This document shows, piece by piece, positions 43,845 to 56,698 of a DNA stretch of 64,000 bases. Location: NCBI RefSeq assembly GCF_000383915.1, contig NZ_KB912942.1:752506-816505 (forward strand). The letters run 5' to 3'. Below the pieces are notes generated by a model. It did no database searches. It was not told the origin of the DNA and saw nothing but the letters and a program-made list of their open reading frames with translations. The translations under genes and the position numbers were made by a program. The stretch's first letter is position 1; each line of letters opens with the position of its first letter. Source of the stretch: Amycolatopsis benzoatilytica AK 16/65. Its GTDB lineage: Bacteria > Actinomycetota > Actinomycetes > Mycobacteriales > Pseudonocardiaceae.

Positions 43845-44153
43845 ATGGCTACCGACTACGACGCTCCGCGCCGCAGCGAAGCCGACGAGCTGGCCGAAGA
43901 CTCGTTGGAGGAGCTGAAGGCCCGTCGCAACGAGAACCAGTCCGGCGTCGTCGACGTCGACGAGGATGCGACCGCGGAGAACTTCGAACTGCCCGGCGCG
44001 GACCTGTCCGGGCTTTCCGGGGAAGACATGACCGTGAAGGTCGTGCCGAAGCAAGCGGACGAGTTCACCTGTTCCGTCTGCTTCCTGGTACACCACCGCA
44101 GCAGGCTCGCCGAGGACAACGGCGGCCGGCTGATCTGCCGCGACTGCGCCTGA
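43845..44153 (+). CDS. DUF4193 zinc-ribbon protein
   Basis: 102 residues. An acidic N-terminal half ('ADELAEDSLEELKARR', 'VDVDEDATAENFELPGADL') precedes a treble-clef-like site: Cys76-x2-Cys79 ('TCSVCFLVHHRS') and Cys98-x2-Cys101 ('LICRDCA') at the extreme C-terminus. This matches DUF4193 (Rv2699 of M. tuberculosis), a family resembling small zinc ribbons that can contact RNA polymerase or DNA; the function is not established. It has its own terminator and a decayed hairpin repeat after it. Confidence 0.9.
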   Translation: MATDYDAPRRSEADELAEDSLEELKARRNENQSGVVDVDEDATAENFELPGADLSGLSGEDMTVKVVPKQADEFTCSVCFLVHHRSRLAEDNGGRLICRDCA

Positions 44154-44226
44154 CCTGGGGATTCGAGGGGAACCACGGGGAACACGGGGACGCACGGCCG
44201 CGGCGCGCACCAGAGCCGGGGAACAG

Positions 44227-44252
44227 AGGGGTCGGCCTTCGGGCCGGCCCCT
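44227..44252 (+). terminator. Terminator of the DUF4193 gene
   Basis: AGGGGTCGGCC pairs with GGCCGGCCCCT (one G-T pair) with a TTCG loop, followed by TTT. It begins 74 bp after the stop. The UUCG tetraloop gives a very stable RNA hairpin. Confidence 0.85.
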
Positions 44253-44281
44253 TTCCCGTGCGCTCGGAAACCGTACGTCCG

Positions 44282-44338
44282 GTCCGCCGCGAACGACGAC
44301 TTGACGGAATCCAAGTCCGTGCGCAGCTCTTCCCGGAC
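44282..44338. repeat. Decayed copy of the hairpin repeat (R10)
   Basis: The core TTGACGGAATCCAAGTCC on the plus strand, with the ends GTCCGCCGCGAA and TTCCCGGAC, keeps the family centre and length (57 bp), but the arms no longer pair. Read on the minus strand it aligns with consensus throughout. It lies between the DUF4193 terminator and the DUF3093 stop. Confidence 0.7.
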
Positions 44339-44361
44339 TTCCGGCAGGTCCGCGGTGGGAG

Positions 44362-44844
44362 TCAGGCGCCGCGCAGCAGTTCGGCGACCTTCTCCGGCTT
44401 GCGGGTGCTGAACAGCCAGTACGGCGTCGGGTCGGCCGGGTCGGTCAGGGTCAGCCGGATCGCCGGCCCCACCCAGCCGCGGTGCACCACGAACGCGGCC
44501 GGGTCGCCGTCGCGGCCCAGCGCGTGCCGCTTCGCGTCGCCCTGGACGATCTTGATCTCGCCGACGTAGCGCAACGGCAGGTGCGCGTCGCCGACCCACA
44601 GCTCCGGCTCGTCCCCGCCGGTGATCCGGACCCGGGCGCGGCCGAGCGACAGCAGCAAGGCGGCCATCACCGGCACCGCGATGCCCAGCGGGATCCACAT
44701 CGGGATCGACGGATAGCCGAGGTGGACCTCGACGCCGAGCAGAATGGCCCCGGCCATCGGCAGGATCCAGCCCCACCACGGCAGGTACAGCCGTTCGGAG
44801 TGTGCGACGACGCCCGTCGCGGCGGTGTTCACGCGGTCAGCCAC
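44362..44844 (-). CDS. DUF3093 membrane protein
   Basis: 160 residues. Two membrane segments (about 20-38 and 47-68) with the DUF3093 hallmark '[33 protein letters not shown]' are followed by a cytosolic beta domain with '[76 protein letters not shown]'. The function is unknown (Rv2698 homologue). It starts at GTG 44844, only 24 bp from the divergent dut start. Confidence 0.87.
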
Positions 44845-44868
44845 GGGACAAGGGTAGTCTCGCCGCCC

Positions 44869-45372
44869 GTGTCCAGCGTTCAGGTCCTCCTTCAGCGGCT
44901 CGACCCCGGCGTCCCGCCGCCCGCCTACGCCCGGCCCGGCGACGCCGGGGCCGATCTCGTCACCACCTCGGATATCGTGCTCGGACCCGGCGAACGCGGG
45001 GTCGTCGGCACCGGGGTCGCGATCGCGCTGCCGCCCGGGTACGCCGGGTTCGTGCACCCGCGCTCCGGGCTCGCGGCTCGCGTCGGCTTGTCGGTGGTGA
45101 ACACTCCCGGAACGATCGACTCGGGCTACCGCGGCGAGATCCGGGTGTGCCTGGTCAACCACGACCCGCGCGAGAAGATCGTGCTGTCCCGGGGCGACCG
45201 GATCGCGCAGCTCGTCGTGCAGCGCGTCGAGCACGCCGACTTCGTCGAGGTGGCCGAACTGGGCGAGACTGAACGCGGCGCCGGAGGTTACGGCTCGACC
45301 GGCGGGCACGCCACACTGGTACCCGGCGCCGGAGACACCGGCGCGGGCACCGGGGAAGGAACGGAACGATAG
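44869..45372 (+). CDS. dut: dUTP diphosphatase
   Basis: 167 residues with all five dUTPase motifs: 'PGDAGADL', 'PRSGLA', '[11 protein letters not shown]', '[10 protein letters not shown]' and C-terminal 'GAGGYGSTG'. The homotrimeric enzyme converts dUTP to dUMP, keeping uracil out of DNA and supplying thymidylate synthesis. It starts with GTG and its stop overlaps the next start (TAGTG). Confidence 0.95.
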
Positions 45373-46049
45373 TGGGGATTTTCGGACGCAAGCGCCGGTC
45401 CGGCGGGGACGAGACCGGGGGCGTCACCTCCGAGGACGCCGAGCGCGACGTCGACACCGCCGGCGAAGCCGACGACGTCCTCGACGACGCCTTCGACGAC
45501 CAGCTTTCGGCGACGCCGGACGGCCCCTTCGACGTCGCCGACGCCGAGGAGGACGGCATCCCTCGGATCGACCTCGGCTCGGTCAAGGTGCCGGTGCCCG
45601 ACGGGTCGCAGGTGCAGGTCGAGATGGACCCGGACGAGGGCGGCGTGCGCGCGGTGCACGTCGTGACCGAGATCGGGCAGATCACCGTGAGCGCGTACGC
45701 CGCGCCCAAGTCCGGCGGGCTGTGGCGCGAGGTCAGCGACGAGCTCGCCGACCAGCTGCGGACCGACGGGGCGAAGGTCAACGTCGGGCGCGGCGAATGG
45801 GGCATGGAGCTTTCCGCCATCGTCGGCGACGTGGCGCTGCGGTTCGTCGGGGTCGACGGGCCCCGGTGGATGCTGCGCGGGGTGATCGCCGGGCCGCAGT
45901 CGACGGCGGCACAGGCGCCGGAGGTGCTGCGGGCGATCGTGCGGGCGACGGTGGTGGACCGGGGGAATTCGCCGATGCCGGTGCGGACTCCGCTGCCGAT
46001 CACGTTGCCGGAAGCGGTCGCGCAGCACATCGCCGAACAGCAGGGCTGA
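45372..46049 (+). CDS. DUF3710 family protein
   Basis: 225 residues. An acidic, Asp/Glu-rich N-terminus (to about 60) precedes a compact alpha/beta domain with 'GSVKVPVPDGSQVQVEMDPDEGGVRAVHVVTEIGQITVSAYAAPKSGGLWREVSDEL' and 'VALRFVGVDGPRWMLRGVIAGPQ'. This is the DUF3710 signature (Rv2696 homologue), function unknown. The GTG start uses the last base of the dut stop, so the pair is translationally coupled. Hairpin R7 begins 28 bp after the stop. Confidence 0.9.
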   Translation: MGIFGRKRRSGGDETGGVTSEDAERDVDTAGEADDVLDDAFDDQLSATPDGPFDVADAEEDGIPRIDLGSVKVPVPDGSQVQVEMDPDEGGVRAVHVVTEIGQITVSAYAAPKSGGLWREVSDELADQLRTDGAKVNVGRGEWGMELSAIVGDVALRFVGVDGPRWMLRGVIAGPQSTAAQAPEVLRAIVRATVVDRGNSPMPVRTPLPITLPEAVAQHIAEQQG

Positions 46050-46077
46050 CCGCCGCTTCCCCCGTTCCCCGTACCCC

Positions 46078-46132
46078 GTCCGTGAAGGGCCCCTTGAGGG
46101 AATCAGATTCCCTCAAGGGGCCCTTCACGGAC
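46078..46132. repeat. Hairpin repeat copy R7 (overlaps a coding end)
   Basis: Perfect 26-bp stem with a CAG loop; consensus arms. Its right arm and loop (46103-46132) are also the last codons and stop of the convergent hydrolase gene, whose end reads VREGPLEGI. It begins 28 bp after the DUF3710 stop. Confidence 0.95.
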
Positions 46133-46849
46133 TGGCTCGGCGGTCAAAGCGCGCAGGTAGGCCAGCACAGTCGCCCGGCCGAGCGATTCCGGGTCCGTCC
46201 CCATCGCGGCGAGCGTCGTCTCGCCGTATTCGCCTCGGGGGAGTGCACCCGCCCAGGCCCGGGCCACCGCGGCCGGATGGATCGGGTCGTCGGTGCACGC
46301 ACCGATTCCGGCCGGGACATCCAGACCGCGCAGCAGCGCGAGCTCGGGGGCTGGTCGTCGTGCGGCGACGCGCAAGCCGGCGGCCAGTCCATCGCCGTGC
46401 CCGCGCCACGCGCGGCTCAGTTCCGCGGCGAGCCAGGGCGGGCTGCCCGCTTCGGCTTGCGCGATCGCCGCGTCGACGCCCTTCTCGGCCACCAGATCGG
46501 CGGTGAGCGTCGCGGCAAGCGCTGCGGGTGCTGGTCCGGGCTCGCCGTTCCAGGCGGGGAGGGCGGCCAGCAGACCGGCGCAACGGCCGGGATTCGCGAC
46601 CGCCCATTCGGCGGCCAGGTGCGCGCCGAAAGAGATCCCGCCCACGAGGAGGGTCCCGTATTGGTCCGCCAGACGGTCCAGTTCGGCGAGAAAGCCGTCC
46701 ACTACGGCGGCGCCGGGGAGCGGCTTTGGCGTGGTCAGAGGCAGGCCCAGGGCGGCGAGCGGACCGCCGAACACCGCCCGCACGAAGACCTCGTCGGAGC
46801 CCGTTCCGGGCAGCAGGACGGCGGCGGGAGGACGGATTGCGGACGTCAC
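46103..46849 (-). CDS. Alpha/beta hydrolase
   Basis: 248 residues from GTG 46849. The N-terminal 'AAVLLPGTGSDEVFVRAVF' is the oxyanion-hole strand, and 'GGISFGAHLAAEWAV' carries the nucleophile Ser73. 'TDDPIHPAAVARAW' contains the acidic residue region and a late 'YGETTLAAMGTDP' the C-terminal part; the usual catalytic His is not obvious. It is the Rv2695 homologue in the sigA block. Its last nine residues and stop come from hairpin R7, so the natural C-terminus was probably replaced. Confidence 0.8.
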   Translation of the reverse strand: MTSAIRPPAAVLLPGTGSDEVFVRAVFGGPLAALGLPLTTPKPLPGAAVVDGFLAELDRLADQYGTLLVGGISFGAHLAAEWAVANPGRCAGLLAALPAWNGEPGPAPAALAATLTADLVAEKGVDAAIAQAEAGSPPWLAAELSRAWRGHGDGLAAGLRVAARRPAPELALLRGLDVPAGIGACTDDPIHPAAVARAWAGALPRGEYGETTLAAMGTDPESLGRATVLAYLRALTAEPVREGPLEGI

Positions 46850-46952
46850 GTTGCGATCTTGCCGCAAACCCGTTTCCCTTGCTGAGACCACAGCTACGCT
46901 GGAAGAGCACGGGCCGAACGAAGTCGGGGGCCCCGGAGCACAGGAGCACGCC

Positions 46953-47333
46953 ATGTCCGCCAAAGACGGCGGCTACTTCAGCCGGTTGGTTCGCAAGCTG
47001 ACCAGCGACGTCGAGGATCTCGACGCCGACGAAATGTCCGAGCGGTCCGGTGCCGAAGGCGCGCAGCGTGCCTGCGATTGCCGGTCGGGCGAAGAGGTGA
47101 CCGTGCTCGGCAGACTGCGCAGCGTCGAGCTGTCCCCCACCGACGGACCCGCCTCGCTGCAGGCGGAGCTGTTCGACGGCACCCAGGGCGTGACGCTAAT
47201 CTGGCTGGGCAGGCGCCGGATCCCCGGCATCGAGCCAGGCCGCACTGTCAAGGTCCGCGGCCGGATGGCCGAACGGGACGGGCAGAAGGTGCTCTACAAC
47301 CCGTATTACGAACTCCAGAGCCCGGTAGGGTGA
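46953..47333 (+). CDS. OB-fold nucleic-acid-binding protein
   Basis: 126 residues. A helical N-terminus with 'FSRLVRKLTSDVEDLDADEMSERSGA' precedes an OB fold with 'GEEVTVLGRLRSVELSPTDGPASLQAELFDGTQGVTLIWLGRRRIPGIEPGRTVKVRGRMAERDGQKVLYNPYYEL'. A CDC motif ('ACDCRSG') begins it. The family (Rv2694 homologue) has the tRNA_anti-like OB fold of small nucleic-acid binders; the target is unknown. ATG 46953 is preceded by GGAGCA, and the DUF3159 gene follows 9 bp later. Confidence 0.87.
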   Translation: MSAKDGGYFSRLVRKLTSDVEDLDADEMSERSGAEGAQRACDCRSGEEVTVLGRLRSVELSPTDGPASLQAELFDGTQGVTLIWLGRRRIPGIEPGRTVKVRGRMAERDGQKVLYNPYYELQSPVG

Positions 47334-47342
47334 TCAACACTC

Positions 47343-48083
47343 GTGACTGAACCCGCTCCTCGCGACGAGAAGGCCGTGCCCGGAAGCGGGGACGACGACC
47401 GCCAGCCCACCCTGATGGAACAGATGGGCGGGGTATCCGGCCTGTTCTACTCGTCCGTGCCGGTGATCGTGTTCGTGCTGCTGAACGCGATCTTCGGGCT
47501 GACCGCGGCGATCTGGGGCTCGATCGGCAGCGCCGTCGCGATCACCGTGCTGCGCGTGGTCCGCAAGGAGCCGCTGCAGCCGGCCATCTCGGGTTTCTTC
47601 GGCGTCGCGGTCGCGGCGTTCATCGCGTTCCGCACCGGCTCGGCGAAGGGGTTCTTCCTCTTCGGCATCTGGGCCAGCCTGCTCTACTGCGGCGTGTTCG
47701 TGGTGTCGGTTCTGGTGCGCTGGCCGCTGGCCGGTGTCATCTGGAACGCCCTCAACGGCACCGGCACCGGGTGGCGCCAGGACAAGCCGTCCCGCTACGG
47801 CTACGACGTCGCGACGCTGGCCATGGCGGTCATCTTCGCCGCCCGGTTCGTGGTGCAGCGCTGGCTCTACGACGGCAACCAGACCGGCTGGCTGGCGTTC
47901 GCGAAGATCGCCATGGGCTATCCGCTGTACGCGATCGGCCTGCTGGTCGTCGTGTGGGCGGTGCGGCGGTCGGACAAGCGGCTGAAGGCGCTCGCCGAGA
48001 ACGAGCCGGAACCGGAGACCGACGCACAGGCGGAGGCCAGGCTGCGCGAGAAATACGCGCAGGCCCCCACCCCCGAATCCTGA
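47343..48083 (+). CDS. DUF3159 membrane protein
   Basis: 246 residues. A polar N-terminus with 'PTLMEQMGGVSGLFYSSVPVIVFVLLNAIFGLTAAIWGSIGSAVAITVLRVVRKEPLQPAISGFFGVAVAAFIAFRTG' contains the first of about six membrane segments; 'WPLAGVIWNALNGTGTGWRQDKPSRYGYDVATL' is the DUF3159 hallmark. It is followed by a charged C-terminal tail (Glu/Asp-rich). Function unknown (Rv2693 homologue). It starts with GTG, 9 bp after the OB-fold gene. Three CCCAATG palindromes follow its stop. Confidence 0.88.
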   Translation: MTEPAPRDEKAVPGSGDDDRQPTLMEQMGGVSGLFYSSVPVIVFVLLNAIFGLTAAIWGSIGSAVAITVLRVVRKEPLQPAISGFFGVAVAAFIAFRTGSAKGFFLFGIWASLLYCGVFVVSVLVRWPLAGVIWNALNGTGTGWRQDKPSRYGYDVATLAMAVIFAARFVVQRWLYDGNQTGWLAFAKIAMGYPLYAIGLLVVVWAVRRSDKRLKALAENEPEPETDAQAEARLREKYAQAPTPES

Positions 48084-48093
48084 CAGCCGCCGC

Positions 48094-48170
48094 CCCAATG
48101 TGGCATTGGGTGCATGCAACGCACCCAATGCCACATTGGGTGCGTCAGATGCACCCAATGTGGCATTGGG
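48094..48170. repeat. Triple alternating palindrome (CCCAATGTGGCATTGGG units)
   Basis: Three 17-bp units at 48094-48110, 48124-48140 and 48154-48170, period 30 bp. Units 1 and 3 read CCCAATGTGGCATTGGG; unit 2 is the exact inverted form CCCAATGCCACATTGGG. The 13-bp spacers, TGCATGCAACGCA and TGCGTCAGATGCA, begin and end TGC..GCA. It lies between the convergent DUF3159 and trkA-like stops (10 and 4 bp away). Confidence 0.92.
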
Positions 48171-48174
48171 GCGG

Positions 48175-48831
48175 TCAGTAGCCGAGCGCCGACCGGATTT
48201 CCGGCTCCACGTCCGAAGTCGCCACGAACAGCAGTTCGTCGCCGGCCTCCAGCGGGTCCTCCGGCTGCGGCACGATGACCCGGTCGCCGCGCAGGATGGT
48301 CACCAGCGCCGCGTCGCGCGGCAGCGCCAGTTCGCTCACCGGCTTGCCGGCCAGCGGCGTCTCCTCCGGCAGGGTGAGTTCCACCAGGTTCGCCTGCCCC
48401 TGACGGAAGGTCATCAGCCGCACCAGGTCGCCGACGCTCACCGCTTCCTCGACCATCGCGGCGAGCATCCGCGGCGTCGACACCGCGACGTCGACGCCCC
48501 ACGCGTCGGTGAACAGCCATTCGTTGGCCGGGTTGTTCACCCGCGCCACCACCCGGCGCACCGCGAACTCGGTCTTCGCCAGCAGCGACACCACCAGGTT
48601 GGCCTTGTCGTCACCGCTCGCCGCGATCACCACGTCGCAGCGTTCGATGCCGGCCTCCTCGAGGATCGACACCTCGCAGGCGTCGCCCAGCACCCAGTCG
48701 GCCTGCGGCACGGATTCCGGCTCGAACTCGTCGGCGTCCCGCTCGATCAGCATCACCTGGTGGTTTGCGTCGATGAGCTCGGCGGCGATGGACTGCCCGA
48801 CGGCGCCCGCGCCCGCGATCGCGACCCGCAT
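48175..48831 (-). CDS. Potassium-transport RCK protein TrkA (CeoC-like)
   Basis: 218 residues. An N-terminal TrkA-N domain with the NAD-binding 'AIAGAGAVGQSIAAELI' (7-12, GxGxxG) and 'ADWVLGDACEVSILEEAGIERCDVVIAASGDDKANLVVSLLAKTEF' is followed by a TrkA-C domain ('ANLVELTLPEETPLAGKPVSELALP'). RCK proteins regulate potassium transporters in response to nucleotides such as NAD(H), ATP or c-di-AMP. It shares the last base of the preceding start codon with the next TrkA gene (48831). No TrkH/TrkG-type channel gene is present here. Confidence 0.92.
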   Translation of the reverse strand: MRVAIAGAGAVGQSIAAELIDANHQVMLIERDADEFEPESVPQADWVLGDACEVSILEEAGIERCDVVIAASGDDKANLVVSLLAKTEFAVRRVVARVNNPANEWLFTDAWGVDVAVSTPRMLAAMVEEAVSVGDLVRLMTFRQGQANLVELTLPEETPLAGKPVSELALPRDAALVTILRGDRVIVPQPEDPLEAGDELLFVATSDVEPEIRSALGY

Positions 48832-49496
48832 CAGTTCTCCTCCTCGGGGGCGCGAGCGGCCACGCTCGTCACGTCTCCGACGGTGCCCGATCGCGCCGCC
48901 ACCCATACGTCGTCGTCGGCCTGCACGACGGTTTTCGCGTCCGGCAGCACCGGTGTGCCGAACCGCATCATGAACGCCACCCTGGCCCCGGTCGCTTCCT
49001 GCAGTTCGCGCACGCTGCGGCCGACCCAGCCCTCGTGCAGCGGAAGCTGCAGCAGTGCGACATTGCCGGACGGGTCGCGCCAGGCGGAGGCGACGCCGTC
49101 GGGCAGCAGGGTGCGCAGGAACCGGTCGGTCGTCCACGGCACGGTCGCGACGGTCGGAATGCCGAGCCGTTCGTATACCGCGGCGCGCTTGTGGTCGTAA
49201 ATGCGCGCGACCACATGTTCGATGCCGAAGTTCTCGCGCGCGACCCGAGCGGAAATAATGTTGGAATTGTCGCCGCTCGACACAGCCGCGAACGCGCCCG
49301 CGCGCTCGATTCCGGCTTCGATGAGCACTCGGCGGTCGAATCCGACCCCGACGACCTGCTGGCCCTGGAAGTCGCTGCCCAGCCGGCGGAACGCCTGCTG
49401 GTTCTTGTCGATGACGGCCACTTCGTGGCCGAGCCGCTCCAGCGCCGCGGCCAGGGACGCGCCGACCCGGCCGCATCCCATGATCACCACGTGCAC
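48831..49496 (-). CDS. Potassium-transport RCK protein TrkA (CeoB-like)
   Basis: 221 residues from GTG 49496. TrkA-N with 'VIMGCGRVGASLAAALE' (GxGxxG at 7-12) and 'VVGVGFDRRVLIEAGIERAGAFAAVSSGDNSNI', then TrkA-C (about 140-215). It is adjacent to the second RCK gene with a 1-bp overlap and 155 bp from the divergent permease. Two separate single-RCK subunits, rather than one fused double RCK as in E. coli TrkA, recall CeoB/CeoC of mycobacteria. A heteromeric complex is likely. Confidence 0.92.
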   Translation of the reverse strand: MHVVIMGCGRVGASLAAALERLGHEVAVIDKNQQAFRRLGSDFQGQQVVGVGFDRRVLIEAGIERAGAFAAVSSGDNSNIISARVARENFGIEHVVARIYDHKRAAVYERLGIPTVATVPWTTDRFLRTLLPDGVASAWRDPSGNVALLQLPLHEGWVGRSVRELQEATGARVAFMMRFGTPVLPDAKTVVQADDDVWVAARSGTVGDVTSVAARAPEEEN

Positions 49497-49651
49497 GCTT
49501 AGCCTCCTAGCAGGGGGTGGATGACCCGTTCGTGGGTACCCTCGGACACCAGCGCCGAACCTACCTTGCCTTGTCCCTGCCCGTTAGCTCTGCCTTCCTC
49601 CTCGGCCCCCGCGCCCAACGGAGAAGCCGCGCTTCGCTGTACATTCTGCAG

Positions 49652-51700
49652 GTGTCGAAGTTCCCGACCGTGCTGAAGCGGCTGGTCCTCGGACGTCCGT
49701 TCCGCAGTGACCGTCTCTCCCACACACTGTTGCCGAAGCGCATCGCGCTGCCGATTTTCGCCTCTGACGCGCTGTCCAGCGTGGCGTACGCGCCGGAGGA
49801 GATCTTCCTGACGCTGAGCGTCGCGGGCCTGTCCGCATACGCCTTCGCGCCGTGGATCGGCGTCGCGGTCGCGCTGGTCATGCTGGTCGTCGTCGCCTCG
49901 TATCGGCAGAACGTGCACGCCTACCCGAGCGGCGGCGGCGACTACGAAGTCGCGACCACCAACATGGGCGGCAAGTTCGGCCTCACGGTGGCGAGCGCGC
50001 TGCTGGTCGACTACGTGCTGACCGTCGCGGTGTCCACTTCGTCCGGTGTCGCGAACATCGGCTCCGCGGTGCCGTGGGTGGCCGATCACAAAGTGATCAC
50101 CGCGGTCGCGATCGTGGCGATTCTGACCGCGCTGAATCTTCGCGGAGTGCGCGAATCCGGCAAAGCGTTCGCCATCCCCACCTATGGATTCATCGCCGGG
50201 ATTCTGCTGATGGTCGCCTGGGGTCTGTTCCAGGCCGCGACCGGCACCGAGATGCGGGCCGAGAGCGCCGGGTTCACCCTGCACCAAGAGGGCAGCTGGG
50301 CCGGGTTCGCGTTCGTGTTCCTGATCCTGCGGTCGTTCTCCTCCGGTGCCGCGGCGCTGACCGGCGTCGAGGCGATCAGCAACGGCGTGCCCGCGTTCCG
50401 CAAGCCGAAGTCGAAGAACGCCGCCACCACGCTGCTGCTGATGGGCGTGCTCGCGGTGACCATGCTGGTCGGCATCATCACGCTCGCGGTCGTCACCAAG
50501 GTGAACTTCGCCGAGGATCCGGCGCGGCAGCTGGCCGGCGCGCCCGCGGGCTATGAGCAGAAGACGATCGTCGCGCAGATCGCGCATGCGGTGTTCGCCA
50601 GCTTCCCGCCGGCGTTCTACTACATCTCGTTCTCCACCGGCATCATCCTGCTGCTGGCCGCGAACACCGCGTTCAACGGATTCCCGGTGCTCGGCTCGAT
50701 CCTCGCCCAGGACCGCTACCTGCCGCGCCAGCTGCACACCCGCGGCGACCGGCTCGCGTTCTCCAACGGGATCCTGTTCCTCGCGGTCTTCGCGCTGGTG
50801 TTGATCATCGCGTTCGACGCGGAGGTCACCCGGCTGATCCAGCTGTACATCGTGGGCGTGTTCGTGTCGTTCACGGTGAGCCAGGCGGGCATGATCCGGC
50901 ACTGGAACCGGCTGCTGGCCAAGGAGACCGACCCGGGCGCGCGGCGGCGGATGCGCCGCTCTCAGACGGTGAACGCGATCGGCCTGACGATGACCGGCAC
51001 CGTGCTGGTCATCGTGTTGATCACGAAGTTCCTGCTCGGCGCGTGGATCGCGATCGCCGCGATGGTGGCGATCTTCGCGCTGATGACGGCGATCCGGAAG
51101 CACTACGACCGGGTGGCCGACGAACTGAAGGAGATGGGCGAGGCGTCGACCGTGCTGCCCTCGCGCAACCACGCCATCGTGCTGGTGTCGAAGCTGCACC
51201 GGCCGACGCTGCGTGCGCTGGCCTACGCGAAGGCGATGCGCCCGGACGTGCTCGAGGCGGTTACTGTCAACGTGGACGATGTAGACACCCGGCACCTCAC
51301 CCAGGAATGGGAAGAGCACAAGTTCAAGGTGCCGCTGAAGGTCGTCGAGTCGCCGTACCGGGAAATCACGAAGCCGGTCTTGGACTACGTGAAGCGCGTG
51401 CGCGGCGCCAATCCGCGCGACGTGGTCACGGTGTTCATTCCCGAGTACGTCGTCGGGCACTGGTGGGAGCAGGTGCTGCACAACCAGAGCGCGTTGCGGC
51501 TCAAGGGGCGGCTGTTGTTCCAACCGGGCGTGGTCGTGGCGAGCGTGCCGTGGCAGCTGGAGTCGTCGGCGAAAGCGGCCGCGCGGCTGCGCAAGACCCG
51601 TCCGTCCGCCGGTGACGTGCGACGCGGCTTCGCGACCGGTGCGCCGAGGCCCGCTGACGCGGCCAAGCCGGCCCCTGTAACCAAGGAGAATTCTGAATGA
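49652..51700 (+). CDS. APC-superfamily permease, KimA-like potassium importer candidate
   Basis: 682 residues from GTG 49652: about 12 membrane segments to about 480, then a cytosolic alpha/beta domain (about 510-650, 'ASTVLPSRNHAIVLVSKLHRPTLRALAYAKAMRPDVLEAVTVNVDD'). 'ASDALSSVAYAPEE' (Asp39, Tyr46) and 'VDYVLTVAVSTS' (Asp120, Tyr121, Thr124, Ser128) match in spacing the K+-site residues of Bacillus KimA as I recall them (D36, Y43, D117, Y118, T121, S125), and Thr237/Glu240 the later pair. The usual label is amino acid permease. Context with two TrkA RCK genes supports potassium. It overlaps trmA-like stop/start (ATGA). Confidence 0.78.
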   Translation: MSKFPTVLKRLVLGRPFRSDRLSHTLLPKRIALPIFASDALSSVAYAPEEIFLTLSVAGLSAYAFAPWIGVAVALVMLVVVASYRQNVHAYPSGGGDYEVATTNMGGKFGLTVASALLVDYVLTVAVSTSSGVANIGSAVPWVADHKVITAVAIVAILTALNLRGVRESGKAFAIPTYGFIAGILLMVAWGLFQAATGTEMRAESAGFTLHQEGSWAGFAFVFLILRSFSSGAAALTGVEAISNGVPAFRKPKSKNAATTLLLMGVLAVTMLVGIITLAVVTKVNFAEDPARQLAGAPAGYEQKTIVAQIAHAVFASFPPAFYYISFSTGIILLLAANTAFNGFPVLGSILAQDRYLPRQLHTRGDRLAFSNGILFLAVFALVLIIAFDAEVTRLIQLYIVGVFVSFTVSQAGMIRHWNRLLAKETDPGARRRMRRSQTVNAIGLTMTGTVLVIVLITKFLLGAWIAIAAMVAIFALMTAIRKHYDRVADELKEMGEASTVLPSRNHAIVLVSKLHRPTLRALAYAKAMRPDVLEAVTVNVDDVDTRHLTQEWEEHKFKVPLKVVESPYREITKPVLDYVKRVRGANPRDVVTVFIPEYVVGHWWEQVLHNQSALRLKGRLLFQPGVVVASVPWQLESSAKAAARLRKTRPSAGDVRRGFATGAPRPADAAKPAPVTKENSE

Positions 51701-52881
51701 GCTGGCTAGGGCGCACCCTGGAGCTGGAAGTCGGCCCGGTGGCGCACGGCGGACACTGTGTGTCGCGGGCAGACGGCCGGGTGGTGTTCGTCCGGCACGC
51801 GCTGCCCGGCGAACGCGTGCGCGTCGAGGTGACCGAGGACAAGGGCGGCTCGTTCTGCCGCGCGGACGCGGTGGAAGTCCTGGAGGCGTCCGCGCATCGC
51901 GTCACGCCGCCGTGTCCGCTCGCCGCTCCCGGCGGCTGTGGCGGCTGCGACTGGCAGCACGCGTCGCCGGAGTACCAGCGCTCGCTGAAGGCGGCCGTCG
52001 TGGCTGAGCAGCTGCAGCGGCTGGCCGGCGTCACGCGCGACGTGGTGGTCGAACCGCTGGACGAGAATCCGCTCGGCTGGCGCAGCCGCGTCCGCCTGGT
52101 CGCCGGCCGGGACGGTCGGGCCGGGTTGCGCGCGCACCACAGCCACCGCGTGATCCCGCTGGACGACTGTCCCATCGCCGTGCCCGGATCGCTGGACACC
52201 GCGTTGAGCAAGCGCTGGCGTCCCGGCACCGAACTGGAGGTGACCAGCGACGGCGAAGGCCACCTCCACCTTCGCGAACTCGCGACGGTGCGCGGGCGAA
52301 CCCAGGGCAAGCAGCTCTCCGGCGGGCTGGCGGTGCAGCACGCCGCCGGCCGCGAATGGCGGCTGGACGCACACGGCTTCTGGCAGGTCCATCCGCGCGC
52401 CGCGGACGTGCTCGCGCAGGTCGTCGGCGACTGGGCGGAAGCGCCGAACGGCGGGGTCGCCTGGGACCTCTACGCGGGCGTCGGCCTGTTCGCCGCGGTG
52501 CTGGCCGAGCAGGTCGGTCCGGACGGCCGGGTGCTGGCCATCGAATCCGGCCGCCGCGCGGTCGCCGACGGCGAGCGGAACCTGGCCGATCTGCCGCAGG
52601 TGAGCTGGCAGACCGGGCGGGTGGAGCACGTCATCGAAGACGCCCCGACGCCGGTCGACGTCGTGGTGCTGGACCCGCCGCGCAAGGGGGCCGGCCGTGC
52701 CGTGGTCGAGGCGATCGCGGCGGGGGAACCGGACCGGGTCGTGTACGTGGCGTGCGACCCGGCGGCGCTTGCGCGGGACGTGGCGTTCTTCGCCGAGCAC
52801 GGGTACTCGTTGACCGATTTGCGGGCGTTCGACGCGTTCCCGATGACGCATCACGTGGAGTGCGTCGCGCTGCTGCAGTGA
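51697..52881 (+). CDS. TrmA/RumA family 5-methyluridine RNA methyltransferase
   Basis: 394 residues. An N-terminal TRAM domain (to about 60) precedes an iron-sulfur site: Cys73, Cys81 and Cys84 ('CPLAAPGGCGGCDWQH') with Cys158 ('LDDCPIA'). The methyltransferase core has 'WDLYAGVGLFAAVLA' and 'VVVLDPPRKGAGRAV'. The catalytic Cys353 is in 'YVACDPAALARD', and the C-terminal 'HHVECVALL' has the general-base Glu. It methylates uridine C5 of rRNA or tRNA with SAM. It is the Rv2689 homologue and overlaps the permease stop. Confidence 0.9.
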   Translation: MSWLGRTLELEVGPVAHGGHCVSRADGRVVFVRHALPGERVRVEVTEDKGGSFCRADAVEVLEASAHRVTPPCPLAAPGGCGGCDWQHASPEYQRSLKAAVVAEQLQRLAGVTRDVVVEPLDENPLGWRSRVRLVAGRDGRAGLRAHHSHRVIPLDDCPIAVPGSLDTALSKRWRPGTELEVTSDGEGHLHLRELATVRGRTQGKQLSGGLAVQHAAGREWRLDAHGFWQVHPRAADVLAQVVGDWAEAPNGGVAWDLYAGVGLFAAVLAEQVGPDGRVLAIESGRRAVADGERNLADLPQVSWQTGRVEHVIEDAPTPVDVVVLDPPRKGAGRAVVEAIAAGEPDRVVYVACDPAALARDVAFFAEHGYSLTDLRAFDAFPMTHHVECVALLQ

Positions 52882-52903
52882 GTCTGGCGGCGGCGAGGTG
52901 CCG

Positions 52904-53323
52904 TCAGGTCGACCGCTGCACCGCGGCGGCCGCCGCGAGCCCCGTCGCGACCAGTACGAGCCCGGACACCAGCAGGACCCACGCCCCGACCGCAGGCGAC
53001 ACTCCTGCGGACGGGGCGAGGTCGTCGTCCTTGGGCAGCGTGACGATCAGGTAGCGCAGCAGAATGCCGGCTACCGCGATCCCGGCGAGAGTCGTGAAGG
53101 CGAGCGGCTCGTCCTGGCGCCGTCGCAGTGTGAGGACCGCCAGCCCGAACGCGAACGCGAGCGCACCCGCGCAGGCCAGCCGGAGCCCGAGGTCCAGGTC
53201 TGGCTCGGCAGCCCCCGGCGGAAAGTGCGCAGGCAGGTAGTGAGCGGTCGGCAACGCAAGCCCGACGCCGCCCCCGACCGCGGCGACCGTCCCGGCCCAC
53301 CCGAGCGCCCGATTGCCTGCCAT
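52904..53323 (-). CDS. Small hypothetical membrane protein
   Basis: 139 residues with four membrane segments (about 5-25, 40-60, 72-92 and 105-130). I do not recognise a family. The ATG at 53323 gives a plausible N-terminus ('MAGNRALGWAGTVAAVGGGVGLALPTAHYLP'); an upstream start would add a hydrophilic stretch of 20 residues. It converges on the methyltransferase gene with a 22-bp gap and without a hairpin. Confidence 0.6.
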   Translation of the reverse strand: MAGNRALGWAGTVAAVGGGVGLALPTAHYLPAHFPPGAAEPDLDLGLRLACAGALAFAFGLAVLTLRRRQDEPLAFTTLAGIAVAGILLRYLIVTLPKDDDLAPSAGVSPAVGAWVLLVSGLVLVATGLAAAAAVQRST

Positions 53324-53615
53324 GCAACGAAGTTTACGACTCGTGCCGGGCGGTTCCGGAGAATTTTCCGGGTCGACCGGCACGAGCCTGCAGTGTGACG
53401 GTGGTCACAATTTGGCCACTTGAGAACCTCTCCGCGCCGCTGGGCGACTGACCGGATGCGCATCACGGCAGGTGCGCCACCCGCCGGCTTCGGCCGGCCG
53501 GTCTCGAAGCGGAGGGGCAGGCATGTTTCGGCACAGGCTTACGCGGGCGGTCGCGGCAGGAGCGCGGGCCGCGCGAGGGCTCACCGGCTGGCCCGGGCGA
53601 GCGCCCGCGGGCCTC

Positions 53616-55169
53616 TCAGCCTCGGTCCTCCTTCAGCAGATCCGCGCACTTCTCGCCGATCGCCATCGTCGTGATGCACGGGTTCACGGTCACCAGGAAC
53701 GGCATCACCGAAGCGTCCGCCACCCGCAACCCCTCCACTCCGCGCACCCGCAGCCGCGCGTCCAGCACCGCGTCCGGGTCGCCGTCCGCGCCCATTCGGG
53801 CGGTGCACGCCGGGTGGTACACCGTGTTGTGCGTCTTGCGCAGGTAGTCGGCGATCTCGTCGTCGGTGGTGCAGTCGCGGCCGGGCGCGAGTTCCGTCCC
53901 GGCCCACTCGTCGAGGGCCGGCTGGGCGGCGATCTCCCGGGCCAGCTTCACGCCGTAGGTCATCACCCGCATGTCGTATTCGTCGGTGAAATACCGCGGG
54001 TCCACGCGCGGCTTGTCGCGGAAGTCGCGGGTGCGCAGCCGCACGGTGCCGCGGGAGCGGCTGCGGGTGACGTTCGGGGTGAGGCAGAAGCCGTTCTCCG
54101 TCGTCGGATAGCCGTGCCGGACGGTGTTCAGGTCGAACGGCACCGAGCCGTAGTGGAACATCAGGTCCGGGCGGTCCAGGCCGTGCTCGGTCGTGGTGAA
54201 GATGCCGATCTCCCACCACTGCGTGGATTCGGTGGCCATCGGCTGCAGCGCGTCCCACATCACCAGGCCCTCGGGGTGGTCCTCGAGGTTCGCGCCGACG
54301 CCGGGCGAGTCTACCAGCACGTCGATGCCGACCTCGCGCAGGTGTTCGGCAGGGCCGATGCCGGACAGCATCAGCAGTTTCGGCGTGTCGATCGCGCCGG
54401 AGCTCACGATCACCTCCCGGCGCGCGGTGATCGTGCTGTGGTGGATCAGGTCCGCGTCCAGGATTTCCACGCCAGTGCACCGGCGTCCGTCGAAGACCAG
54501 CCGCTTCGCCCGCGCGCCGGTCCGCACCTCCAGGTTCGGCCGCTTGCCCAGAACCGGGTGCAGGTACGACACCGACGCCGACGAGCGGGTGCCGTCCTCG
54601 CGGGCGTTGATCTGGAACCAGTTCGCGCCGTGCGTGACGGTCTTGCCGGAGTTGAACTCGGCGGTCGGGATGCCCGCCTGCGCGCAGGCGGCCAGCAGCG
54701 CGACGCCGGTCGGGTCGCGCGGCGGCACCGACCGGATGGTCACCGGGCCGGAACGGCCGTGGTGCCCGCCCGGGCCGTCGTTGGTCTCCAACCGGCGGTA
54801 CAACGGGAAAACGTCCGCCGCGGACCAGCCGGGCAGTCCCATCGCGGCCCACTCGTCCAGGTCCTCGGCCGGCGCCCAGAACGCGATGCACGAGTTGTGC
54901 GACGAGCACCCGCCGAGCACCCGGGCGCGGGCCTGGCGCAGGAAGGAGTTGCCCGCTTCCTGTGGCTCCACCAGGTAGTCCCAGTCGTACCCGGACTCCA
55001 GCAGGCCCATCCAGCGGGTGAGCTCGAGCACCTCCGGAACGTCCACATCGGACGGTCCGGCCTCGAGGACGCAGACCGTCGCGCCCGGGTCCTCCGACAG
55101 CCGGGCGGCCACCACCGATCCGGCCGTGCCGCCGCCGACCACCACGTAGTCGAATTCCGCACCGCTCAC
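53616..55169 (-). CDS. GMC oxidoreductase (choline dehydrogenase type)
   Basis: 517 residues. The FAD-binding 'VVVGGGTAGSVVAARLSEDP' (about 9-28), the GMC signature 'RARVLGGCSSHNSCIAFW' and 'SSGAIDTPKLLMLSGIGP' (second GMC signature), and the catalytic 'YHPACTARMG' (His453) with Asn499 in 'NPCITTMAIGEK' are all present. With an aldehyde dehydrogenase and permease beside it, choline to betaine aldehyde is the likely reaction, although many GMC enzymes oxidise other alcohols. The GTG start overlaps the upstream permease stop (GTGA). Confidence 0.85.
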   Translation of the reverse strand: MSGAEFDYVVVGGGTAGSVVAARLSEDPGATVCVLEAGPSDVDVPEVLELTRWMGLLESGYDWDYLVEPQEAGNSFLRQARARVLGGCSSHNSCIAFWAPAEDLDEWAAMGLPGWSAADVFPLYRRLETNDGPGGHHGRSGPVTIRSVPPRDPTGVALLAACAQAGIPTAEFNSGKTVTHGANWFQINAREDGTRSSASVSYLHPVLGKRPNLEVRTGARAKRLVFDGRRCTGVEILDADLIHHSTITARREVIVSSGAIDTPKLLMLSGIGPAEHLREVGIDVLVDSPGVGANLEDHPEGLVMWDALQPMATESTQWWEIGIFTTTEHGLDRPDLMFHYGSVPFDLNTVRHGYPTTENGFCLTPNVTRSRSRGTVRLRTRDFRDKPRVDPRYFTDEYDMRVMTYGVKLAREIAAQPALDEWAGTELAPGRDCTTDDEIADYLRKTHNTVYHPACTARMGADGDPDAVLDARLRVRGVEGLRVADASVMPFLVTVNPCITTMAIGEKCADLLKEDRG

Positions 55170-56698
55170 CGGGAAACCTCCTCGTCGGACGCGAGGGCGG
55201 CGGCGTGGTCCGCCAGCACCCCGACCTTGTGTCGTTGCACGAACCAGTAGTAAGCGAAGCCGCCGGCCGCGAAGACGCCGACGAACAACACCGAAATCCA
55301 TTTCAGGTACCAGTGGAACGGAGGGGACGCGTTGTAGATCTCGTTGCGCGGCCAGGCCAGGTTGATCGTCATCGCGCCGCCCCACAGCACCGCGAGCACG
55401 TTCACCGGCAGGCCCCAGCGGCCGAGGGAGAACCGGCCGGACGGGGCGTCGCTGCGCGGCCAGCCGCCGCGCAGCCGGCGGATCAGCATCGGGACGGTGA
55501 CCAGCAGGTAGGCCAGATAGATCAGGATGATCGCGAGGCTGGTGACCGCGGAGAAGATCTGCGTGGAGTTGATGTTCAGCACCAGCAGGGCCACCGCGAG
55601 TACGCCGATCACGATCGCGGGCAGCACCGGCGTGCCGGTCTTCTTGTTGACCCGCGCCAGTTTCCGGCCGCCGGGCAGGGCGTTGTCCCGGGCCATCGCG
55701 AACGCGATCCGGATCGCCGCGGTGTGCACGGCCAGCACGCACACCGTGATCGCGATGAACACCACGAACAGGAACACCCGGCCGATCGCCGGGCCGAGCG
55801 CGTCGGTCAGCACGTACTGCAGGCCGACCGTGCCCAGTTCCGGTGCGTGGATGCTGCCGACCGCCATCAGCGCGAACAGAATGATCAGTCCGCCCAGCAC
55901 GAACGACGCGATCAGCGCGCGCAGGATCGCCTTCGGCGCGTTTCGATGCGGGTTCAGCGACTCCTCGCCGAGCGAGGCGGCGGTGTCGAAGCCGTACATC
56001 ACATACGACGAGGCGATCCCGGCGATCAGGAACGCGCCAAGGTACCCGGACGAATGCCCGGCCTCGGTCCCGTTCGTCTGGGTCACCACCGACGGGCCGC
56101 GCACGAAATGGAACGCGAGGAACACCACCAGCAGCACCGCGAAAAGCAGCTCGACGAACACGCCCGCGCTGTTGATCCGGGCCATCAGTTTCACGCCGAA
56201 CGCGTTGACCAGCGTCGTGAACGCGATCAGCACGGTCGCCAGCAGCACGCCGTTGGCCGCGTCGCTGGTGCCGGTCCCGTCGCCGATGAACTGGAAGAAC
56301 TGGGTGATCTGCGGCAGCGTCCGCTGGTAGGCGAGCGCGGTCGCGGAAATCGAGACGATCGAGGCGAGCAGCATCATCCAGCCCGCCATCCAGGCGATGT
56401 GCGGATTGCTGAGCTTTTTCGTCCAGTTGTAGATCGAACCGGCGACCGGATACTGCGCGGCCAGTTCGGCGAAGCAGAGCGCCACCGTCAGCTGCCCGAG
56501 GAACACCGCCGGCCAGGACCACCAATACGCCGGCCCGCCTTCGGACAGCCCCAGGTAGGAAAGCTGGAACACCCCGGTCAGCACCGAGATGTAGCTGATC
56601 CCGGCAGCGAAGGTGTGAAAACTGCCGAGCGTTCTCTTGAGCTGGTTGGTGTAGCCGAATTCGCCGAGTTCCTGGTCGCCGGTGTCGGTCAAGGGCAC
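55166..56698 (-). CDS. APC family permease (choline/amine type)
   Basis: 510 residues with about 12 membrane segments. 'GYTNQLKRTLGSFHTFAAGISYISVLTGVFQL' and 'AELAAQYPVAGSIYNWTKKLSNPHIAWMAGWMML' put it in the amino acid/choline/polyamine branch of the superfamily. GTG 56698 has GAAAGGATC at good distance. It probably imports the substrate of the GMC enzyme and aldehyde dehydrogenase in the operon. Substrate specificity is inferred from the neighbours only. Confidence 0.83.
   Translation of the reverse strand: MPLTDTGDQELGEFGYTNQLKRTLGSFHTFAAGISYISVLTGVFQLSYLGLSEGGPAYWWSWPAVFLGQLTVALCFAELAAQYPVAGSIYNWTKKLSNPHIAWMAGWMMLLASIVSISATALAYQRTLPQITQFFQFIGDGTGTSDAANGVLLATVLIAFTTLVNAFGVKLMARINSAGVFVELLFAVLLVVFLAFHFVRGPSVVTQTNGTEAGHSSGYLGAFLIAGIASSYVMYGFDTAASLGEESLNPHRNAPKAILRALIASFVLGGLIILFALMAVGSIHAPELGTVGLQYVLTDALGPAIGRVFLFVVFIAITVCVLAVHTAAIRIAFAMARDNALPGGRKLARVNKKTGTPVLPAIVIGVLAVALLVLNINSTQIFSAVTSLAIILIYLAYLLVTVPMLIRRLRGGWPRSDAPSGRFSLGRWGLPVNVLAVLWGGAMTINLAWPRNEIYNASPPFHWYLKWISVLFVGVFAAGGFAYYWFVQRHKVGVLADHAAALASDEEVSR

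Follow-up and report, generated by a model that had tools for sequence, protein, structure and literature searches.

To our knowledge, KimA of Bacillus subtilis works without a separate RCK (regulator of K+ conductance) subunit. This member of the KUP family is a homodimer that is inhibited by cyclic di-AMP (c-di-AMP), and its K+-coordinating and proton-coupling residues have been described (PMC6994465, PMC10284832). In Thermotoga maritima, two single-RCK proteins, TM1088A and TM1088B, form one octameric ring that serves the TrkH channel TM1089 (PMC4380455), and in mycobacteria, the single-RCK pair CeoB and CeoC (Rv2691 and Rv2692) is encoded by overlapping genes (PMC8358298) that adjoin the permease gene Rv2690c (PMC12216072). 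Although both are RCK proteins, CeoB and CeoC are treated as a K+ transporter in several mycobacterial papers, in which Trk is described as two TrkA proteins and a membrane subunit is missing (PMC13163235, PMC8358298, PMC4553272). Here, we analyze a 64,000-nucleotide stretch of the genome of Amycolatopsis benzoatilytica AK 16/65 (assembly GCF_000383915.1, contig NZ_KB912942.1, positions 752,506 to 816,505; hereafter the window), in which a gene for a KimA-type permease is divergent from the genes of a CeoB/CeoC-type single-RCK pair. A preliminary description of this DNA, made from the sequence alone, had reported this arrangement, and the coordinates agree with it.

On balance, we judge it probable that the locus encodes a K+ uptake system in which a KimA-type K+/H+ symporter is controlled by the RCK pair together with a small OB-fold protein. 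We know of no other LeuT-fold symporter under separate RCK proteins, and an RCK-controlled KimA would be the first. The window KimA resembles the B. subtilis protein in its full-length homology, the K+ site, the proton-coupling glutamate, the cytosolic domain and most residues of the c-di-AMP pocket. It differs in its ties to a pair of RCK proteins and an OB-fold protein; in addition, none of the 12 Amycolatopsis genomes scanned (the host and 11 congeners) gave a diadenylate cyclase domain, which was found in 7 of 8 genomes from elsewhere in the order. The resemblance to T. maritima lies in the two single-RCK proteins, for which a common ring is proposed here as well; the partner there is a TrkH channel, whereas the neighbor here is a LeuT-fold symporter and no TrkH was found in the host genome. 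In Streptomyces venezuelae, the KimA-like Vnz_27465 and the RCK_C protein Vnz_27460 have neighboring locus tags and the authors likewise found no TrkH; however, the accessible text does not connect the two proteins, and the RCK_C domain of Vnz_27460 did not bind c-di-AMP (PMC10117811). As far as its accessible text goes, this Streptomyces review lists KimA-like proteins without a link to RCK proteins.

The permease is a KimA homologue with an intact K+ site

The only PDB match of the permease found by phmmer is KimA (6s3k, 8b70 and 8b71; E = 9e-112), with residues 53–681 aligned to KimA 5–605, and the homology spans the full length, including the C-terminal cytosolic domain. In a Foldseek search with a low-confidence predicted model of the permease, whose underlying alignment included rows 64–81% identical to it, the top three matches were KimA (E from 5.9e-32 for 8b70 to 1.4e-26) and the next, non-KimA structure followed at 6.6e-12. 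Both searches bear out the KimA identity given in the preliminary description. Residues are numbered, as in that description, from the GTG at 49652; the longest listed frame begins at 49517.

The residues earlier assigned to the KimA K+ site, together with a matching Thr/Glu pair, were recovered in a 12-row alignment, in which D39, Y46, D120, Y121, T124, S128 and E240 are invariant and T237 is nearly so, and the B. subtilis site residues D36, Y43, T121, T230, Y377 and E233 are all present in the window permease. The preliminary description had made its reading depend on conservation of these residues in orthologues. In an alignment of 96 rows, which includes B. subtilis KimA and some genomes fetched twice, all 95 covering rows keep KimA D36, Y43, Y118 and E233, and 94 of 96 keep Y377; D117 and T121 are less strict, with replacements by G, A or S in five rows and by N in two, respectively. 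A regular expression for the spacing of the site matched 85 of the 96 KimA rows and none of 14 other APC permeases of the host genome (14 of its 22 non-KimA PF13520 matches), and none of these 14 showed the site after being added to the alignment. Because neither the spacing nor the residues have a counterpart in these permeases, the K+ site is not a generic APC feature. Judged by its sequence, the permease is a full-length KimA homologue with an intact K+ site, from which we infer K+ transport.

Two more KimA paralogues are encoded in the host genome (L051, C1:1798659-1800638, and L052, C1:1500116-1501849). Identity to the window permease is 61% for one and 36% for the other, and the 36% identical one is changed at the K+ site (T121 to N and Y377 to F). 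We considered the C-terminal tail of KimA (PGxxRRG type) as an RCK docking site and rejected it, because the tail is also present in L051, which lacks an RCK neighbor. In deeper lineages, RCK-linked KimAs (L077, L082, L084-L086, L091-L101 and others) often lie in frames of about 750–950 amino acids, with two phmmer domains and extra cytosolic-domain matches downstream.

KimA and the RCK pair are linked across Actinomycetota

Among 198 sampled Actinomycetota genomes, 90 have a match to KimA (including about nine weak ones, E of 1e-19 or worse), 110 to TrkH and 187 to CeoB; 22 genomes have both KimA and TrkH, 68 have KimA but not TrkH, 88 have TrkH but not KimA, and 20 have neither. Adjacency was counted among the matches listed, which cover 104 of the 187 CeoB genomes, 71 of them with KimA, after leaving out short partial KimA matches (mainly to the cytosolic domain only) and CeoB matches weaker than 3e-34. 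Of the 71 genomes with both placed, 58 have the best CeoB match no more than 5 kb from KimA, and 50 no more than 2 kb; 12 of the remaining 13 have no listed KimA on the CeoB contig, and in one the two genes are 81 kb apart. The 58 adjacent genomes belong to 21 families, and 51 of them are without TrkH.

We also examined named loci retrieved by KimA similarity alone. The 80 best of at least 595 candidates, which are near relatives (61–89% identity) and include many from Mycobacterium and its relatives, hold KimA, CeoB and CeoC together in 78 cases, and KimA and CeoB are on opposite strands in all 80. The triplet is present in named Mycobacterium loci. Both surveys agree with the conservation across actinobacteria that the preliminary description had put forward as a check. 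In deeper lineages, gene order and orientation vary and the linkage is kept, and the flanking genes TrmA and DUF3159 were found beside 7 of 7 triplet loci of the same class and 0 of 31 others. Since order and orientation change while these flanks are class-restricted, the linkage of the triplet is not mere general synteny. No fusion of KimA with an RCK protein was seen among 120 proteins listed of 8,000 or in the mapped loci (L-numbered), which were mostly picked for having an RCK pair and are uninformative on frequency.

In Pfam scans of the RCK proteins, TrkA_N and TrkA_C are matched at 3.8e-24 and 8.3e-8 in the CeoB-like protein and at 1.7e-27 and 1.4e-17 in the CeoC-like protein, and the Rossmann motif GxGxxG is present in 41 of 41 CeoB and 40 of 40 CeoC rows labelled KimA-linked.

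A small OB-fold protein is the fourth conserved member

The linkage extends to a gene for a small protein with a predicted OB (oligonucleotide/oligosaccharide-binding) fold. By locus type, this gene accompanies 37 of 40 KimA-linked RCK pairs, none of 31 ATPase-linked pairs, none of 9 TrkH-linked pairs, 2 of 6 pairs for which the fetched stretch shows no partner and none of 14 loci with KimA only; it was not within the fetched stretch in 3 of the 40 KimA-linked loci and 13 of the 80 named loci. Genome-wide, strong matches occur in 65 of the 198 genomes: in all 58 with adjacent KimA and CeoB, in 6 of the 32 further genomes that match KimA, and in 1 of the 108 without KimA. The cut-off for a strong match was placed by eye, with short frames on one side and frames of RecG length on the other; strong matches reach 2.3e-17, and the next, in a 690-residue frame, is at 5.7e-15; a weaker second copy in one genome (G032, 139-residue frame, 5.0e-13) falls below it. 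In the six other KimA genomes, the OB gene shares a contig with CeoB (G028, G073 and G146), with KimA (G102 and G135) or with a CeoB pair and a weak KimA trace (G172). Wherever the OB gene and CeoB were on one contig, they were usually close (no more than 3 kb apart in 50 of 55 genomes).

In two loci (L083 and L087) and three database proteins, the OB domain is the C-terminal domain of KimA itself. These five fusions group in a single clade that lies within KimAs with a separate OB gene or with none seen, and may have had a single origin, with which this grouping is compatible. The four-gene association of KimA, CeoB, CeoC and the OB-fold protein is real and conserved.

PF01336 (tRNA_anti-codon) matches 20 of 21 OB members at E ≤ 0.1 (best 1.1e-8), including the window protein at 0.0034, which is under the curated cut-off. 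The predicted structure is an OB barrel (mean predicted local distance difference test (pLDDT) score 81.6) whose best fold match in the PDB is RecG (E = 1.2e-4). A sequence search of the PDB with the OB profile returned polyubiquitin chains first (2.2e-11, although no single stretch passed) and RecG next at 1.9e-4; we regard the likeness to ubiquitin as a repeat artefact. Together, the scans and the model point to a predicted OB barrel of the RecG-wedge/RPA kind. This fourth part, the two KimA paralogues without RCK neighbors and the RCK pairs beside P-type ATPases described below go beyond the preliminary description. By synteny, the putative M. tuberculosis counterpart of the OB gene is Rv2694c. 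Rv2694c is reported as a conserved hypothetical induced by thioridazine (PMC2851646) and is named a hypothetical in PMC6333855.

Genomic setting and proposed nucleotide control

The host genome is a single contig of 8.7 Mb, and protein matches place its nearest kin in Amycolatopsis. The preliminary description had seen no TrkH partner for the RCK pair, and profile searches extend this to the whole genome, with 0 matches to PF02386 (11 of 14 control genomes were positive). Of the other K+ systems it had proposed to look for, Kup is likewise without a match (PF02705) and KdpA is encoded. One small Ion_trans_2 channel gene and two further TrkA_C genes lie elsewhere in the genome. At the locus itself (Table 1), the ATG of the ceoC-like gene overlaps the stop of the ceoB-like gene by one base, and neither a ydaO-type nor any other Rfam element reached its gathering score in the surrounding region.

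Table 1. Features of the KimA/RCK locus, in window positions
Feature	Positions	Strand	Basis
KimA-type K+/H+ symporter, 682 aa, predicted	49652..51700	+	LeuT-fold membrane domain and C-terminal cytosolic domain; phmmer, K+ site, Foldseek
CeoB-like single-RCK protein (TrkA_N and TrkA_C)	48831..49496	-	Pfam; GxGxxG kept
CeoC-like single-RCK protein (TrkA_N and TrkA_C)	48175..48831	-	Pfam; GxGxxG kept
Small OB-fold protein, 126 aa, fourth conserved member	46953..47333	+	Linkage, KimA fusion, predicted OB barrel
Divergent spacer between CeoB and KimA genes, 155 bp	49497..49651	.	No Rfam match in 44000-56000

The c-di-AMP pocket is largely retained in the window KimA, with equivalents of R337, V457, L461, V506, H579, N580, Q581 and S582 kept and P479 replaced by L. 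The c-di-AMP-binding motif of RCK_C domains of the KtrA/CpeA type, (I/L)(I/L)x2DxRx5N(I/L)(I/L) (PMC10117811), was found in 0 of 87 CeoB and 0 of 85 CeoC rows, and we rejected c-di-AMP control through the RCK pair on this ground. Because the diadenylate cyclase domain was not found in the Amycolatopsis genomes, though the KimA pocket is mostly kept, nucleotide control in this genus would likely run through the RCK pair, perhaps together with the OB-fold protein.

A proposed RCK-controlled KimA and its alternatives

In the proposed system, K+ would enter through KimA at a site formed by D39, Y46, T237 and the tyrosine that corresponds to Y377, with proton coupling through E240. CeoB and CeoC, both with an intact nucleotide-binding motif, would form a heteromeric RCK ring at the cytosolic side and would set KimA activity by nucleotide state (ATP/ADP or NAD(H)), like TrkA for TrkH; we infer such direct regulation, as the preliminary description had proposed. 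The OB-fold protein, which in one lineage is covalently joined to the cytosolic domain of KimA, may dock there and could either connect RCK to KimA as an adaptor or sense a ligand or nucleic acid.

Several observations weigh against this proposal. The KimA model has low confidence (pLDDT 65.8), and M. tuberculosis without ceoBC showed no growth defect at low K+ and, with a kdpF reporter, only a slight increase in sensitivity (PMC6375644), although Kdp could mask a defect. On the KimA tree, the RCK-linked label, which applies to any KimA in a locus holding an RCK gene, needs 7 changes compared with 15.2 in shuffles, and we therefore rejected a single clade of RCK-linked KimAs; because the tree shows no such clade, different KimA types may have paired with this kind of RCK partner, or lost it, more than once. 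Further points favor a self-sufficient KimA, with the RCK pair and the OB-fold protein as merely co-regulated K+ homeostasis genes that act elsewhere, for example on a K+/H+ antiporter, Kdp or the one K+ channel. Promoters are divergent in most placed loci, and in many loci the clustering could be a matter of divergent co-regulation alone; neither KimA paralogue has an RCK or OB neighbor within the 9.5–10.5 kb fetched; antiporters are known to carry RCK domains (KhtT/CpeA; PMC10117811); and the host genome has two other TrkA_C genes and one channel gene at other sites. We nevertheless consider self-sufficiency unlikely, since the linkage outlasts changes of order and orientation over 21 families and the OB domain is fused to KimA in one clade. 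CeoB proteins also cluster by partner: their tree, built by a quick method and containing some long branches, separates TrkH-, ATPase- and KimA-linked pairs (support of 91 for the KimA-linked branch) and needs 10 changes of partner label with no-partner rows as a fourth label (38.0 in shuffles) and 4 without those rows. Finally, ceoB and the adjacent Rv2690c have a common transposon phenotype in M. tuberculosis and are both counted to the Trk K+ system in PMC12216072, whose accessible text does not contain the word KimA.

Two other explanations carry less weight. The RCK pair and the OB-fold protein might control KimA through its expression or membrane insertion, for example by OB binding of its mRNA, instead of forming a gating assembly. 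The predicted resemblance to nucleic-acid-binding OB folds, from the Pfam scans and the modelled fold, would suit such a role, but the fusion to the KimA C terminus puts the OB domain on the mature transporter and RCK proteins are typically post-translational regulators, so we regard it as quite improbable. We give hardly any credence to amino acid transport with a KimA likeness of fold only: AA_permease_2 is the sole Pfam domain match of the permease, and database names of its relatives read APC family permease or amino acid transporter, but the match to KimA is full length with the cytosolic domain included and reaches 37% identity in the structural alignment, and all 14 other APC permeases examined lack the K+ and proton residues that the covered KimA rows retain.

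An RCK-controlled KimA would explain the common phenotype of ceoB and Rv2690c mutants and would give a role to the uncharacterised OB-fold protein found with the KimA-linked pair in 21 families of the sample. A broader idea strikes us as possible, if short of probable: actinobacterial RCK pairs may be regulators that are swappable among TrkH channels, symporters of the KimA type and pumps resembling Na,K-ATPase, three K+ transporter classes that are unrelated, the OB subunit may couple K+ uptake to a nucleic-acid or nucleotide signal, and KimA, which we propose here for this part, may be the missing membrane subunit of mycobacterial Trk. As a conserved partner, KimA would fill that gap and make a directly testable system. 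Screening with pyrazinoic acid and rifampin has brought up Rv2690c as well (PMC8805019, PMC10534295), and Rv2690c and ceoC variants occur at similar frequency in one late isolate of a clinical series (PMC11878324). In the accessible parts of this literature, we found nothing that identifies Rv2690c as a KimA or describes KimA as acting together with RCK proteins.

RCK pairs beside P-type ATPases

An RCK pair lies beside a P-type ATPase in 30 loci without KimA in the fetched stretch, and additionally in L070. The 30 loci come from various Actinomycetota families (L053-L056, L067-L069, L196-L198, L200-L203, L205-L207, L209, L211, L212, L215, L216, L218, L219, L221-L223, L225, L227 and L228), and some of their genomes carry KimA elsewhere. 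L070 was considered as a partner swap from KimA to an ATPase and rejected, because its pump is of the VAAIPEG type; the pump is regarded as just a neighbor, and a similar one stands beside a complete triplet in L072. L070 still bears the ATPase label in the CeoB tree and in the OB locus counts. Among 32 long pump frames, 24 contain [VI]ANVPEG, 2 contain VAAIPEG (both of family f42) and 6 contain neither by the pattern used. Three pumps were scanned, each with TIGR01106 (Na,K/H,K-ATPase) as its best model at a score under the curated cut-off, and one aligned with human Na,K-ATPase. Such Na,K-ATPase-like pumps are a possible second unusual partner of RCK proteins.

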